A DNA stretch of 64,000 bases. It comes from Nitrobacter sp. NHB1 (GTDB taxonomy: Bacteria > Pseudomonadota > Alphaproteobacteria > Rhizobiales > Xanthobacteraceae). The DNA is taken from contig NZ_JBAMDA010000001.1 of NCBI RefSeq assembly GCF_036964665.1, positions 3,076,001-3,140,000 on the forward strand. Reading direction: 5' to 3'. Under the pieces are notes generated by a model. It worked only from the letters and a program-made list of their open reading frames with translations. It did not search any database and was not told the DNA's origin. Of the stretch, positions 16,567-51,876 are shown in pieces. Positions within the stretch are counted from its first letter, which is position 1, and every line of letters starts with the position of its first letter. A program made the translations under genes and the position numbers.

Positions 16567-16947
16567 GGAGCGCTTACCGTTCTGATGGAATCAGAACGGG
16601 CGCTCTAAGTTATTGAGTGATCGCATTTCCTTACGGTTTACGGTGAACCGGTGTCCACTTCACCGAAAAATGCTCAACTGGTCCCATTCTAACATTCGCA
16701 TCCGGTTTCAGCGCGCCTTCTTGCGAATGCTGGAATCGAAGGACCAGTAGCAAATATAAGTTGCTTGTGGAGTTTTGAACTTGACATTAGCGTCCGGGAC
16801 GTGCGGCTAGATGGATCGCAAATGTCAAATTCGCTCCACTAGAGCATTTCCCGGTGAAGTGGACACCGGTTCACCGTATGGAAATGCGGCCATTCGATAG
16901 CTTGGAGCGCTTACCGTTCTGATTCCATCAGAACGGTAAGCGCTCTA
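16567..16947. repeat. Nested inverted-repeat composite (~380 bp)
   Basis: This fills most of the gap between hemF and the TPR gene. The order is palindrome P1 (16568-16606, GAGCGCTTACCGTTCTGATG...), arm L (16622-16675, with GGTGAACCGGTGTCCACTTC), and a two-hairpin core (16678-16841). These are followed by arm R (16843-16889), an inverted copy of L, and P2 (16905-16945), an inverted copy of P1. P2 is a perfect 19-bp-arm palindrome with a 3-nt loop. The whole unit could fold back on itself as one long hairpin. No coding potential is visible. Confidence 0.85.
16678..16841 (+). repeat. Two-hairpin dispersed element, copy 1
   Basis: Hairpin 1 runs from CTGGTCCCATTCTAACATTCG to its partner CGAATGCTGGAATCGAAGGACCAG. 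A linker (AGTAGCAAATATAAGTTGC...) follows. Hairpin 2 is built on TTGACATT...AATGTCAA, and the element ends CTCCACTAG. A second copy lies at 61581-61737 and a decayed 3' end at 40358-40403. Paired changes in hairpin 2 (TTAGCG versus TTCGCT, with matching partners) suggest the structures are conserved. It could be a MITE-like element or a structured RNA. Confidence 0.7.
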
Positions 16948-17006: not shown

Positions 17007-17600
17007 ATGGCTGTGTCCGATATCATGCTTGCGGCGAAGCTAAACGATCAGGCCGAACTCTTAAAAGAAAAGGGGCGCTACGCCGAGGCCGAGCCGCTCT
17101 ACAAGCAGGCACTGGCGATCGTCGAGAAGGCGCGCGGGCCCCATCACCCCTCTGTCGCGCTGGCACTGACCGATCTGGCCGAACTGTACAGCGCCCAGGG
17201 TCGCTACGCCGATGCCGAGCCGCTCTATAAACGGTCGCTGTCGGCCTGGAAAAGCGCCCTCGGGCTCGATCACCCCGAGGTCGTGCAATCGCTGAACGGT
17301 CTGGCCTCCCTGTACAGGGCCCAGGGTCGCTACGCCGATGCCGAGCCGCTCTACAAGCGAGCACACGCGATCTTCCACAAGGTGCTCGGCCCCGATCATC
17401 CCTCTGTCGCGTCGGCGCTGAGCAATCTGGCCTCAGTCTACAAAGAAGAGGGCCGCTACGCCGATGCCCAGCCGCTCTACGAGCGGGCACTGACGATCCG
17501 GGAGAACGTGCTCGGCCCCGATCACCCCGATGTCGCGCAATCGCGGAGCAATCTGGCCGACCTGTACAGCGCCCAGAAAGAGAATCCCTCTAGTTCCTAG
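17007..17600 (+). CDS. Kinesin-light-chain-type TPR protein
   Basis: The 197-aa protein is four copies of a 42-residue tetratricopeptide unit; the GRYA-A-PLY core recurs at residues 23, 65, 107 and 149, exactly 42 apart, followed by LGPDHP-type turns. TPR arrays bind partner proteins. It has no signal peptide, membrane helix or catalytic domain, and stops abruptly just after entering a fifth unit (NLADLYSAQ). It may be a fragment of a longer TPR protein. AGGAG lies 10 nt before the ATG. The stop overlaps the stop of queD on the other strand, and the upstream side is the repeat composite. Confidence 0.75.
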   Translation: MAVSDIMLAAKLNDQAELLKEKGRYAEAEPLYKQALAIVEKARGPHHPSVALALTDLAELYSAQGRYADAEPLYKRSLSAWKSALGLDHPEVVQSLNGLASLYRAQGRYADAEPLYKRAHAIFHKVLGPDHPSVASALSNLASVYKEEGRYADAQPLYERALTIRENVLGPDHPDVAQSRSNLADLYSAQKENPSSS

Positions 17601-30070: not shown

Positions 30071-31141
30071 TCACGTCTCGGCCAGGTTGACGGTGTCGCC
30101 CCAACTGATCCGGCGTACGCGGGCATAGGCGGCCTTGTCGCGACGGGAAAATGTCGTGAGGCCGGCGCGCCCGTCCGGTTGGCATAGCTTGACGCGCATC
30201 CCCGCCTTGGTGACCAGCGGCGGCGCCAGCACCCGCGCCGGATGTTGCCGGGCGGGCGTTCGGGCCAGCGCGACATAGCTGAATTTCTCATCCTCGAAAG
30301 GAAGCTCCGCGCCCTTGATGTACTTGTGCGCGCGCGATCGCGGCAGTCGCTGCACGAAATGGCACCAGTCCGGCGCGGCTTTTTGTTTTGACGCGTTTTC
30401 TTCACGCGAAGCGGTATCCATCCTCGGGTCACGCCCGAGGACATGCTTCGCTGAAAACGTTACGAGCGGACATTCTTCGTTGTGCGGGCAGGGCGCAATG
30501 ACATACGCGCCTTGGGCAACCAGCCGGCGGCGTAGGTCGAGGATGCGTTGATAGCCCGCGGGCGTACCGGGTTCGACGACCAGCAGCATGTCGCGGCTGG
30601 CCGCCCACATGAGATCGGCGAGTGCAGCCTGCCGGTCGGCATTCATTTCGCCGATGACATAGCTCGCGACGACGAGATCGGCGCTCGCGGCCGCATCGCG
30701 GAGCCCGCCTGATGCTTCGCTTTGCGCATAGCGGAGGTCGTGTAGCCGCGCCTGATCGGCGGCGAGGTCGAGCGCAAGCGTCCGCAGCGCCGGATTGGCG
30801 TCGATCGCGGTGAATTCGCAGAGAGAATCGAACGCCTGCGCCGTCGCCCATGTCGCGGTGCCGGGTCCGGCGCCGACATCGAGCAGGCTGTCCGGCGCGA
30901 AGTCCGGGCGTATCTCGCGGAGCGCATTGAGGCAGGCGACGACGGCCGCATAGGTCGCGGGCATCCGCGCCAGCGCATAGGCAAGTGCGTCGGATTCGCT
31001 CCGGATCGCTCCCGAGCCGCCGCCGCCGCGATAAGTTTGCGAGATCGCCGCCGCGCGAACCGCGGCATCGTTGCGGGAGAGGCCTTCAGCCTTCCGCTGC
31101 AATGCGACCTTCAATTCGGCAGGGAGATCGGGAGCGATCAT
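30071..31141 (-). CDS. Rsm22-family small-subunit rRNA methyltransferase-like protein with repeat insertion
   Basis: The 356-aa protein has the SAM-binding motif LLDVGAGPGTATWA (about 86-99) and the Rsm22-type cysteine cluster: APCPHNEECPL (C218, C224) and DWCHF (C260), followed by RLPRSRAHKYIKGAELPFED. Mitochondrial Rsm22 is implicated in small ribosomal subunit maturation; bacterial members are uncharacterised. Between CPL and DWCHF, where relatives have almost nothing, about 30 residues are inserted (VTFSAKHVLGRDPRMDTA...). This stretch is encoded by a dispersed palindromic repeat in frame (30379-30461). The ATG at 31141 is the natural start. Confidence 0.82.
   Translation of the reverse strand: MIAPDLPAELKVALQRKAEGLSRNDAAVRAAAISQTYRGGGGSGAIRSESDALAYALARMPATYAAVVACLNALREIRPDFAPDSLLDVGAGPGTATWATAQAFDSLCEFTAIDANPALRTLALDLAADQARLHDLRYAQSEASGGLRDAAASADLVVASYVIGEMNADRQAALADLMWAASRDMLLVVEPGTPAGYQRILDLRRRLVAQGAYVIAPCPHNEECPLVTFSAKHVLGRDPRMDTASREENASKQKAAPDWCHFVQRLPRSRAHKYIKGAELPFEDEKFSYVALARTPARQHPARVLAPPLVTKAGMRVKLCQPDGRAGLTTFSRRDKAAYARVRRISWGDTVNLAET
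30379..30461 (-). repeat. Palindromic repeat element inserted in frame in the Rsm22-family gene
   Basis: The sequence TTGACGCGTTTTCTTCACGCGAAGCGG..., then CCTCGGGTCACGCCCGAGG and GACATGCTTCGCTGAAAACG, is nearly identical to the intergenic element at 51539-51667 and close to 37909-38010. It is read through as roughly residues 228-255 of the host protein without a stop or frameshift. Confidence 0.88.
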
Positions 31142-31149
31142 GAACCAGT

Positions 31150-31283
31150 GTCGTCCCCGCGAACGCGGGGACCCATAACCCCAGACTGAATTCAGCGTAC
31201 CAAGATTGCAACGAGCAGGAAACAGCGCGCTGCAGCAGCAATTCGCGCCGCGACGTATGGATCCCCGCGTTCGCGGGGGCGAC
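31150..31283. repeat. GTCGTCCCCGCGAACGCGG family inverted repeat
   Basis: The left arm GTCGTCCCCGCGAACGCGGG followed by GACCCATA faces the right arm TATGGATCCCCGCGTTCGCG followed by GGGGCGAC, about 134 bp overall. Related copies lie at 35036-35195 and 51742-51876, with a variant at 37749-37902. It lies between the smc stop and the Rsm22-family start. Confidence 0.88.
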
Positions 31284-31288
31284 AAGTC

Positions 31289-34795: not shown

Positions 34796-35035
34796 GGCCA
34801 CTCTGCTGTACTGGCAAGACGCGAATCAGCCCACGGTTACAATACCATACGCAGTATTGCCGGCAGCTCCCGAGTCGCGCATCTCGCGAGGTTCGACAAT
34901 GGCGAGGGCGGCGCATCAGGGCAACCGCGCAAACGGGCTTTTCCAGAGGCTTTTGCAGGAGTTATGCGGGAACTCGCGCCGCGCTGTTTGAAAATTGAGT
35001 CAGAGCTGGTCAGGGTGCCAACCAAAACTGTTAGC

Positions 35036-35195
35036 GTCGTCCCCGCGAAGGCGGGACCCATACACCGTGTCCTCGCTATAGAAGCACAGAAGCGACAACG
35101 ATCTGACATGCGGTAAGCCGCTTCGTTGTACCACAGTCGTCATGGGTTATGGGTCCGCCGCCCCGGTGCGCAATTGCGCACGAGGCGGGGACGAC
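35036..35195. repeat. GTCGTCCCCGCG family inverted repeat
   Basis: A 160-bp element with left arm GTCGTCCCCGCGAAGGCGGG followed by ACCCATA, and right arm TATGGGTCC...GGCGGGGACGAC. It lies in the 420-bp gap between smc and the dsbA-like gene. The rest of that gap (34796-35035) shows no gene or clear motif. Confidence 0.8.
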
Positions 35196-36520: not shown

Positions 36521-37735
36521 ATGATCCTAGCAGGTGCGGCCAACAAGCGAAAGAAACCAGCCGCTGCCGCTCCGCGTTTGCCGGACAGGCCCGGACTCCT
36601 GCTTGCCTGGTACGATCGGCACCGCCGTCGCCTGCCGTGGCGTGCGCTGCCCGACGAGGTCGCCGATCCCTATCGGGTCTGGTTGTCCGAGATCATGTTG
36701 CAGCAGACCACCGTGAAGGCGGTCGGGCCTTATTTCGAAAAGTTCCTGGCGCGCTGGCCGGATGTCGACGCGATGGCGCGCGCGTCGCTCGACGATATCC
36801 TGCGGATGTGGGCCGGACTCGGCTACTATTCGCGCGCGCGCAATCTCCATGCCTGCGCGGTGGCGGTGCGGCGCGATCACGGCGGCACGTTTCCCGATAC
36901 GGAAGACGGCTTGCGCGTGCTACCTGGGATCGGCGCTTATACGGCGGCGGCGATCGCTGCCATCGCCTTCGGCCGCCGCACCATGCCGGTCGACGGCAAC
37001 ATCGAGCGGGTGGTGTCGCGCCTGTTCGCGGTTGAGGAGCCGCTGCCGAAGGCGAAGCCGCGCATTCGGGAGCTTGCGGCGACGCTGCTCGGGCCCTCGC
37101 GATCGAGCGACGTGAAGACACGCGCCGGTCGCGACGACAAGAGCCGCGCTGGCGACGGCAAGAGCCGCGCTGGCGACGGCAAGAGCCGCGCTGGCGACGG
37201 CAAGAGCCGCGCTGGCGATTCCGCGCAGGCGCTGATGGATCTCGGCGCCACCATCTGCACGCCGCGGAAGCCGGCCTGCGTGCTGTGTCCGCTCGGCGAC
37301 GAGTGTGCCGCGCGGCTACGCGGCGATCCGGAGACGTTTCCGCGCAAGGCGAAGAAGAAGGCAGGCGCGTTGCGGCGCGGCGCGGCCTTCGTGGTGACGC
37401 GCGGCGATCACCTGCTGGTCCGCACCCGCCCCGAAAAGGGTCTGCTCGGCGGCATGACGGAAGTGCCGACCTCGGTCTGGCTTGCCGCGCAGGATGATGC
37501 GACCGCGCTGAAGCAGGCGCCGTTACTTGGGAGCGCCTCGCGCTGGCGGCGCAAGGCCGGCACGGTCACGCACGTCTTCACGCATTTTCCGCTGGAGCTT
37601 ACGGTCTATACCGCGAGCGCTGCCGCGCGTGCCCGCGCGCCCGAGGGTATGCGCTGGGTGCCGATCGCAACGCTGAAGGATGAAGCGTTGCCGAACCTGA
37701 TGCGCAAGGTCATCGCGCACGGGTTGGGCGAGTGA
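36521..37735 (+). CDS. mutY: A/G-specific adenine glycosylase MutY with tandem-repeat insertion
   Basis: The 404-aa enzyme removes adenine mispaired with 8-oxoguanine or G. It shows LPWRALPDEVADPYRVWLSE, the helix-hairpin-helix/catalytic Asp region LPGIGAYTAAAIAAIAFG then VDGN, the 4Fe-4S cysteines in CTPRKPACVLCPLGDEC, and a C-terminal Nudix-like 8-oxoG recognition domain. Residues about 200-234 are an insertion of tandem KSRAGDG heptads between LLGPSR and the QALMDLG helix. It is divergent from dciA. Confidence 0.93.
   Translation: MILAGAANKRKKPAAAAPRLPDRPGLLLAWYDRHRRRLPWRALPDEVADPYRVWLSEIMLQQTTVKAVGPYFEKFLARWPDVDAMARASLDDILRMWAGLGYYSRARNLHACAVAVRRDHGGTFPDTEDGLRVLPGIGAYTAAAIAAIAFGRRTMPVDGNIERVVSRLFAVEEPLPKAKPRIRELAATLLGPSRSSDVKTRAGRDDKSRAGDGKSRAGDGKSRAGDGKSRAGDSAQALMDLGATICTPRKPACVLCPLGDECAARLRGDPETFPRKAKKKAGALRRGAAFVVTRGDHLLVRTRPEKGLLGGMTEVPTSVWLAAQDDATALKQAPLLGSASRWRRKAGTVTHVFTHFPLELTVYTASAAARARAPEGMRWVPIATLKDEALPNLMRKVIAHGLGE
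37115..37222 (+). repeat. 21-bp tandem repeat inside mutY
   Basis: Four consecutive units of AAGAGCCGCGCTGGCGACGGC (37139-37222, the last with two changes) encode KSRAGDG three times and KSRAGDS once. A degenerate unit (KTRAGRD, 37115-37135) precedes them with a 3-bp spacer. Unit length is a multiple of three, so copy-number change keeps the frame. Confidence 0.93.
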
Positions 37736-37908: not shown

Positions 37909-38010
37909 AGAGCCTTTTCGCTTCTGATGGAATCAGAAGCGAGGCTCTATGATTTTGATTTGACGCGTTTTCTTCACGCGAACCGGTATCCACTTCGCTC
38001 GAAAACGCTA
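37909..38010. repeat. AGAGCC palindrome plus TTGACGCGTTTTC element
   Basis: Part one is a hairpin AGAGCCTTTTCGCTTCTGAT followed by GGAATCAGAAGCGAGGCTCT. Part two is TTTGACGCGTTTTCTTCACG followed by CGAACCGG...GCTCGAAAACGC. The same two parts occur at 51539-51667, and the second part is the element inside the Rsm22-family gene. Between 38011 and the GST terminator I see nothing else. Confidence 0.82.
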
Positions 38011-38081
38011 TAACCCGCGCTGGAAATCTGCGTTGGTTCCGGCAGCATTACCATCGGCGGCTTGGCGTTGAGAGCTTCGAT

Positions 38082-50640: not shown

Positions 50641-51540
50641 ATGAACATGAAATCGACCGAACCGGCGCTGAGCGAGACCGCGCGCGCCAAGGTCAACCTG
50701 ACCCTGCGGGTGGTGGGCCGGCGCGCCGACGGTTTTCACGATCTCGAAAGCGTGGTCGCGTTTGCCGATTGCGTCGACCGCCTCACCCTGACGCCGGGCA
50801 CGGAGCTGTCGCTCGTCGCCGGTGGCCCGGGCGCGCAGGAGTGCGGTCAAACAGCCGACAATCTCGTTCTCAAGGCGGCGCGGCTGCTCGGCGAGAGGGT
50901 CACAAACCTGAAGACGGGCGTTTTCGCGCTGGACAAGCATTTGCCGGTCGCGGCCGGCATCGGCGGCGGCTCGGCGGATGCGGCTGCGGCGTTGAGGCTG
51001 CTGGCGAGGGCCAACGGCATTGCGATCGGTGATCGGCGCTTGATTGAAGTGGCGCGACTGACCGGCGCCGATGTGCCGGTTTGCGTCCGTTCGGAAGCCT
51101 GCGTGATGACGGGTGTCGGCGAGACCCTGCAGCCGTTGGGTTTGCCGGCGATGCCGGCCGTGCTGGTCAATCCGCGCGTTCCCGTCGCCACGAAGGACGT
51201 TTTCGCCGCGCTCGGCCTTCGGAAAGGCGAACTGCACCTCGGCGTCTCCGATGTGATCGAAGCGATCGTGTGGCCGAAGACCGGGGCGCCGACGGACGAT
51301 TGGCTGGCCATGCTGGCGGACGGCACCAACGATCTCGAAGCGCCCGCGATCCGCGTTCAGCCCGTGATCGGCGAGGTGCTCGCGAGGCTACGGGCAACCG
51401 GCGCGCGGCTGTCGCGGATGTCTGGCTCGGGCGCGACGTGTTTTGCGATTTTCGGCAACGAGGCCGACGCGCGTCGCGCCGCGCAAACGATCCGGCTCGA
51501 TCGTCCGCAATGGTGGGCTCATGCGGGGACGCTGAGCTAG
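50641..51540 (+). CDS. ispE: 4-diphosphocytidyl-2-C-methyl-D-erythritol kinase
   Basis: The 299-aa GHMP kinase phosphorylates CDP-methylerythritol in the MEP isoprenoid pathway. It has ARAKVNLTLRVVGRRADGFH, the ATP motif LPVAAGIGGGSADAAAAL, and MSGSGATCFAIF. The start is uncertain: ATGs at 50623, 50641 and 50647 lie close together with no clear Shine-Dalgarno; the domain begins just after 50647. The TAG stop is also the first base pairs of a dispersed repeat. Confidence 0.92.
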   Translation: MNMKSTEPALSETARAKVNLTLRVVGRRADGFHDLESVVAFADCVDRLTLTPGTELSLVAGGPGAQECGQTADNLVLKAARLLGERVTNLKTGVFALDKHLPVAAGIGGGSADAAAALRLLARANGIAIGDRRLIEVARLTGADVPVCVRSEACVMTGVGETLQPLGLPAMPAVLVNPRVPVATKDVFAALGLRKGELHLGVSDVIEAIVWPKTGAPTDDWLAMLADGTNDLEAPAIRVQPVIGEVLARLRATGARLSRMSGSGATCFAIFGNEADARRAAQTIRLDRPQWWAHAGTLS

Positions 51541-51667
51541 AGCCTTTTCGTTTCTGATGGAATCAGAAGCGGGCTCTATGATTTTGTTTGACGCGTTTTC
51601 TTCACGCGAACCGGTGCCCATCCTCGGGTCAAGCCCGAGGACATGCTTCGCTCGAAAACGCGCTCTA
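51539..51667. repeat. AGAGCC palindrome plus TTGACGCGTTTTC element
   Basis: The hairpin TAGAGCCTTTTCGTTTCTGA...AGAAGCGGGCTCTA is followed by TTTGACGCGTTTTCTTCACG, then CCTCGGGTCAAGCCCGAGG and ATGCTTCGCTCGAAAACG. It is the closest match to the copy inside the Rsm22-family gene. Its first bases coincide with the ispE stop codon. Confidence 0.85.
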
Positions 51668-51741
51668 TGTGCGGTCAATCGAGGTTCGTCGCAGCGGGCG
51701 CTCGCCTCCTCGAAAGCGCGAGGCGAGCCAACATGGTTGCT

Positions 51742-51876
51742 GTCGTCCCCGCGAACGCGGGGACCCATATTCCGTGTCGTTGCAATTGAAGAACAATGTC
51801 ATGCCCGTGCGTCGGGGATCTCTTCGCCGCGTCACTGACGTCAGGGGGTATGGGTCCCTGCGTTCGCAGGGACGAC
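51742..51876. repeat. GTCGTCCCCGCGAACGCGG family inverted repeat
   Basis: The left arm GTCGTCCCCGCGAACGCGGG followed by GACCCATA faces the right arm GGTATGGGTCCCTGCGTTCG followed by CAGGGACGAC. It fills much of the 429-bp gap between ispE and rlmJ along with the preceding repeat; no gene is visible in the gap. Confidence 0.88.

Follow-up and report, generated by a model that had tools for sequence, protein, structure and literature searches.

Can a palindromic repeat that otherwise lies between genes become part of a conserved protein, and when and in what form did it enter the gene? The question is raised by the rsm22 gene in the window, that is, in the whole 64,000-nucleotide stretch of Nitrobacter sp. 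NHB1 DNA analysed here. According to the original prediction, whose observation was confirmed and whose interpretation was partly supported by the present analysis, about 28 residues of the protein are encoded by an otherwise intergenic repeat.

The rsm22 gene and its insert

The rsm22 coding sequence occupies positions 30071 to 31141 on the minus strand, with the first ATG at 31141-31139 and the stop codon at 30073-30071. The product matches the Pfam Rsm22 domain (PF09243) in two stretches with 255 bits (cut-off 23), and among solved structures the best matches of an AlphaFold2 model (mean pLDDT 86.7) are METTL17/Rsm22 of human, yeast and trypanosome. The domain, the fold and four conserved cysteines place the protein in the Rsm22/METTL17 family.

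Cys219, Cys225, Cys261 and Cys321 are invariant in an alignment of 42 rows. In human METTL17 residues C333, C339, C347 and C404 are reported to bind a [4Fe-4S] cluster (PMC11046306), and all four have invariant counterparts in the window protein. Cys219 and Cys225 (codons within 30470-30490, minus strand) align with C333 and C339. Cys261 (30362-30364, minus strand), the first presumed ligand past the insert, corresponds to C347 by order rather than by residue-by-residue alignment, and Cys321 (30182-30184, minus strand), the fourth presumed ligand, corresponds to C404 by order and context. By analogy with the human protein, the four cysteines of Nitrobacter Rsm22 are presumed to be [4Fe-4S] ligands.

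The insert lies between the second and the third of these cysteines. Comparison of protein and codons with those of orthologues identified a net in-frame insert of 84 nt (28 codons) at 30380-30463 on the minus strand, slightly displaced from the predicted 30379-30461. It corresponds to residues 228-255 and consists of the long form of the repeat (see below). The loop that it extends has 7 residues between the second and the third ligand in human METTL17 and in the non-Nitrobacter orthologues, whereas in Nitrobacter it has 24-35. The copy is close to the element consensus along its whole length (three changes), and its alignment score of 147 was reached by none of 2000 dinucleotide shuffles, the best of which scored 36. 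The reading frame is uninterrupted across the repeat, and the predicted location between the motifs CPL and DWCHF (PDWCHF in this protein), free of frameshifts and stops, was borne out. It is thus confirmed that a copy of the repeat is read in frame within a real rsm22 gene. In the model pLDDT falls below 50 at residues 230-251 and 254-256, so that the inserted loop is predicted to be disordered. The simplest reading of the model would be a disordered loop with the presumed ligands left in place.

The repeat in the genome and its two forms

The gene copy belongs to a direct-repeat family, D2, with members at 30382-30457, 37954-38029 and 51582-51657 in the window. A 22-nucleotide pattern of the repeat, allowing up to three mismatches, had 125 matches (57 + 68) in the whole 3.79-Mb genome, while the same pattern written backwards had none; this upheld the claim that residues of Rsm22 are encoded by a repeat found elsewhere between genes. 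The repeat occurs in a short form of about 60 nt and a long form of about 85 nt, the difference being a 25-nt inner hairpin, which in the gene copy was located by consensus comparison at 30421-30445 (minus strand). Matches to the inner hairpin were found at 64 sites of the genome; 50 of these coincide with one of the 117 chromosomal copies examined, and the remaining 14 lie in what by eye are remains of the outer element, some of them weak. Since all 64 sites were judged to lie within the outer element, the idea that the inner hairpin is an independent repeat jumping into it is unsupported in this genome.

The two further window copies, named in the original prediction as the same repeat, are indeed intergenic, but both are accompanied by a second hairpin module (37909-37941 and 51539-51571), which the gene copy does not have, and only one is of the long form. 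The copy with its module at 37909-38029 (plus strand) is short, the inner hairpin being absent from the 37954 element, and that at 51539-51667 (plus strand) is long.

For 46% of its length the rsm22 copy also matched four Bradyrhizobium plasmids, which have no gene annotated under the match. Rfam gave no match at gathering score across the window and none up to E=1 at 30340-30500. The transposase domain Y1_Tnp (PF01797) had no match in eight of the nine Nitrobacter genomes, the window's included, and two partial matches in the genome G102. As PF01797 had no match in the window's genome, the repeat is not classed here as a REP moved by a RAYT, which supposes that the genome encodes Y1_Tnp/RAYT. 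We regard it as a REP/MITE-like palindromic element that appears to be, or to have been, mobile.

Several other repeats were observed. One long-form copy (L200, G000:C1:1561000-1561900) has fully symmetric arms and shares its loop variant with the rsm22 copy. In the window, short palindromes of the CGTC type (TGTCGTCCCCGCGAACGCGGGGACCCATA and relatives) occur at 31149-31177, 31256-31284, 35035-35063 and 51741-51769; the first two face each other just upstream of rsm22. Perfectly complementary 32-nt arms (16568-16599 and 16914-16945), 314 nt apart, enclose a 61-nt inverted pair (16639-16699 and 16818-16878), and the 32-nt arm is similar to the repeat's second hairpin module. The window also has a direct repeat with 126-nt spacing at 17039-17542 (about 500 nt, 70-75% alike), perhaps a repeat-protein gene, and a tandem repeat with 21-nt spacing at 37126-37230.

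To estimate how often copies are coding, 118 copies found by BLAST in selected loci of the window's genome were examined. These include 99 of 100 listed places (of the 125 pattern matches) and further copies; the one listed place outside the set is the window copy at 37954, where no frame is open by 40 residues on both sides. In 20 of the 118 copies 23 frames were open by at least 40 residues on each side and at least 120 in all, and rsm22 was the only one with a domain on both sides of the element. In an ApaG frame the element precedes the domain, and Pfam gave no match in the remaining 21 frames. A frame with no Pfam match may still be a gene, and strongly decayed inserts would escape such a survey. 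With a recognised domain split by one of 118 copies, genome-wide coding insertion of the RPE-1 kind was rejected, and the repeat is therefore not a coding-prone family like RPE-1. Four of the six frames are open in each consensus form (with the right flank as in the gene copy), thus permissive frames exist; the rarity of coding copies probably reflects the loss of harmful insertions.

Candidates with long open frames, found among the matches listed in other Nitrobacter genomes and a few in this genome, looked by eye like antisense or arginine-rich spurious frames, or had the element at the beginning, upstream or at the end of the frame, and none was convincing; candidate L225 had been matched through a methyltransferase domain, not through the repeat. 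In two loci of other Nitrobacter (L229 and L230) the repeat lies directly upstream of frames that by eye resemble dprA- and xerD-type genes.

Age of the insertion and a probable change of form

The site was compared in 65 orthologues from outside Nitrobacter (25 + 40 loci, 63 distinct); locus L105, with a match of 48 residues only, was left out, and the 71 of 119 family genomes with no Rsm22 match are not informative on the insert. All 65 have exactly three residues between CPx and DWC and do not have the insert, so the outcome that would have spoken for an ancestral loop, namely the same residues in all orthologues, did not occur. All nine Nitrobacter rows, representing eight species (L034 and L063 are the same gene; L061, L062, L064 and L063 are the genes of G135, G119, G164 and G083), have 20-31 residues between the two motifs. 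rsm22 was found in eight of nine Nitrobacter genomes, the ninth, G150, being 89% complete. The insert is present in each of the eight species with the gene, adding 28 residues in the window's species and 17-20 in the other seven, whose CPx-DWC spacing is 23 residues in five, 22 in one and 20 in one.

When the eight inserts were scored against the repeat consensus, the score was reached by none of 2000 shuffles in seven cases and by one of 2000 in the eighth, and stretches of the same length elsewhere in the Nitrobacter rsm22 genes scored at most 25. The weakest are the inserts of L033 and L034, with a score of 30 each (best shuffles 27 and 33). The clearest of the seven other species is L062, whose alignment to the short form has 45 identities, 6 mismatches and one gap of 9 nt; the predicted RNA fold of its insert was equalled by one of 200 shuffles. 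Judging by these alignments, the inserts of the seven other species are decayed short forms of the same repeat, which places the insertion before the radiation of the genus. On the distribution of the insert, carried by all eight species, it is neither recent nor private to the window's genome. In the tree the group of eight Nitrobacter had support of 99/99 and the node that separates L062 from the other seven had 93/92, just below the 95 mark; within those seven the window's species had no firm position in the tree.

The two forms of the repeat differ in their distribution across the bacterial family. The short form was found in 95 of 149 sampled genomes and in 34 of 47 genera, the long form in 13 of the 149: six of the seven sampled Nitrobacter (4-56 matches) and seven others (1-4); the Nitrobacter genomes G150 and G164 are outside these samples. 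Five Nitrobacter genomes have 18-56 long-form matches, the window's with 56 among them, and a sixth has 4. G119, the earliest Nitrobacter branch and the genome of L062, has 10 short and no long matches, which is weaker evidence than it would be in a copy-rich genome because G119 has few copies altogether. The long form is best seen as a later product of Nitrobacter. If the insertion is older than the split of G119 and the long form arose later, the inserted copy should have been short; the insert of the window's gene is long, so this gene would have changed from short to long in place. Such a switch is most likely what happened in the window's species, a view that is weakened by its dependence on G119 as the earliest branch and on a genome with few copies. 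The long-form insert is known from one genome and may also be a peculiarity of the assembly or the strain.

The consensus short form is open in the frame in which the gene enters it (AFSSEVDTGSREENASKQK), whereas the consensus long form meets two stops. In the left arm of the gene copy one nucleotide is deleted at 30452-30453 on the minus strand (TTTTC-AGCG vs TTTTCGAGCG), a deletion found in one of the 118 genomic copies, the rsm22 copy itself, and one that restores the frame. The gain of 25 nt less 1 nt amounts to 24 nt or eight codons, and the downstream frame is thereby rejoined. As either change alone would break the frame, one event seems likelier than two.

The divergence of the copy fits later rewriting. 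In the rest of rsm22 the synonymous divergence between the window's species and six other Nitrobacter is 0.35-0.53. A neutral copy as old as the genus would be expected to carry about 13.5 changes in 58 nt and the observed number of changes from the consensus is 3 (P 0.0007); at 60% of the neutral rate 8.1 changes would be expected (P 0.04). Both values are rough Poisson estimates.

We therefore favour, with a probability of about 0.8, a single insertion of the short form in an ancestor of Nitrobacter, which was tolerated, decayed in seven species and was switched to the long form in the lineage of the window. The short form, which is roughly 60 nt long, divisible by three and open in frame, would have inserted once into rsm22 of the common ancestor, where its target was the loop that joins two of the presumed four [4Fe-4S] ligands. 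Tolerated there as a disordered linker, it would have decayed in seven species with constraint relaxed. Within the window's lineage the copy would then have acquired the long form where it stood, the likeliest routes being ectopic recombination with a long intergenic copy or template switching to one, and the 25-nt gain would have been offset by the 1-nt deletion, with a net gain of 24 nt that kept the protein readable.

The loop might instead be functional and be kept by selection, for example by tuning the loading of the Fe-S cluster or the binding to the small ribosomal subunit. The insert was kept in eight of eight species with its frame intact and with a similar length in seven, it lies between presumed cluster ligands, and its pN/pS (0.60, pooled over 28 pairs) is below 1, which may indicate purifying selection. 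This value is, however, roughly double the 0.32 obtained outside the insert, the sequence is poorly conserved and predicted to be disordered, and any insert in a gene that the cell needs would be expected to keep its frame. Constraint on the insert is relaxed relative to the rest of the gene, though not proven to be neutral; we favour neutral tolerance of the loop and consider selection for a function rather unlikely.

Alternatively, the window's lineage may have lost the old insert, and the long form may have inserted a second time, independently, at the same site. The near-consensus sequence, the abundance of the long form in this genome (56 pattern matches) and two rare markers common to the gene copy and the genomic copy L015 (656513), namely the right-arm GCT variant and a rare loop variant, speak for it, although the sharing of these markers may be due to chance. 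On the same markers L015 might also have been the donor in a conversion in place. The GCT variant also links the gene copy to its orthologues: 4 of the 7 orthologous inserts have it, against only 3 of the 109 copies readable in the genome, one of which is the gene copy. Moreover, site and orientation are those of the orthologues, the right flank TCAAAACAAAAAGC is also found in L032 and L061, and the 1-nt deletion would still be needed for the frame. An independent second insertion is therefore unlikely.

Still less probable is an ancestral insert that was already long, was retained in the window's species and lost length independently in each of the other lineages. The copy in the window's gene is near the consensus over its whole length and the branching order of the species is partly unresolved, which would suit this history, but several separate deletions would have had to end at nearly the same length (the 23, 22 and 20 residues given above). 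The earliest branch, with its short matches only, and the near absence of the long form outside Nitrobacter suggest that the long form is younger than the insertion. Finally, a chance resemblance or a mispredicted gene, with an intergenic repeat beside an rsm22 pseudogene or a wrong call, could be suspected because long open frames that seem spurious also run through several other copies, but it is refuted by the conserved downstream half from DWCHF to the end, the two-stretch Pfam match, the four conserved cysteines, the confident METTL17/Rsm22-like model and insert homology far beyond that of shuffles, and its probability is negligible.

Insertion of the short form followed by a switch in place would make rsm22 a dated two-step history of a repeat turned protein, with in-frame insertion in the ancestor of the genus and later replacement of the form in one lineage. 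In between, the insert would have been tolerated as a disordered loop next to a presumed metal-cluster site and would have decayed in most species, and the newer form that arrived left the gene unbroken. The insert also provides a test of whether coding repeats share in the concerted evolution of their intergenic copies. A more speculative reading, which we hold to be less likely than not, is that a coding copy stays open to rewriting from intergenic copies: as the family moved from its short to its long form the rsm22 loop would have moved with it, a coupled 1-nt deletion saving the frame, and the length of the Fe-S loop in a ribosome-assembly factor would be set by a selfish repeat through its concerted evolution, which might also influence how the cluster is loaded.

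Comparison with known coding palindromes

The closest parallel is with the Rickettsia palindromic elements. RPE-1 to RPE-7 are described as palindromic repeats that occur intergenically as well as in frame within conserved genes, and an early survey reported RPEs in 19 reading frames (PMC2229807). Inserts at the same site that have diverged among orthologues of sister species, and placement in solvent-exposed positions, are also described (PMC3767692, PMC2229807). At the rsm22 locus the likeness drawn in the original prediction is right: the same repeat is intergenic and in frame in a conserved gene, and the orthologues from outside the clade (65 of 65) do not have the insert. It does not extend to the genome as a whole, where recurrent insertion in many genes, as seen with RPEs, has no counterpart among the 118 copies examined. 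RPEs are given as 100-150 bp long, longer than either form of the Nitrobacter repeat, their hosts belong to a different order, and no sequence relation was noticed; the likeness drawn here is one of phenomenon.

In-frame palindromes are less uncommon than the original prediction implied. GTAG/CGTC REPs are reported to be mostly intergenic palindromes that sometimes occur in frame inside ORFs of several bacteria, e.g. R. conorii, S. alaskensis and E. litoralis, and over half of the intragenic inserts are described as dimers or groups that encode 20-30 residues (PMC3733652). In some species REP elements are said to be nested in longer palindromes (PMC3733652). The outer element described here is longer than a REP of 20-40 bp, and in this genome its inner hairpin was seen only within the outer element (64 sites). 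By eye only, the inner hairpin (TGTC-CTCGGG-CTTGA-CCCGAG-GATGG) is reminiscent of a CGTC-tagged REP, which is characterised by a stem of 8-9 bp, a loop of 4-5 nt, CGTC, TGTC or CCTC at one end and a CCA-like tail.

Br-REP1 and Br-REP2 of Bradyrhizobium, a member of the same bacterial family as Nitrobacter, are palindromic intergenic repeats, and Br-REP2 is described as a component of a larger element that is present in Nitrobacter too (PMC5082802). Their printed consensus is by eye unlike that of the present element, and the parts of the report consulted describe no coding copies. At title and abstract level, the open-access literature yielded no report of this repeat in a Nitrobacter coding gene. 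Protein-coding palindromes as such are already known; what distinguishes the rsm22 insert from them is its probable growth in place together with a compensating deletion, in a case that is well dated.
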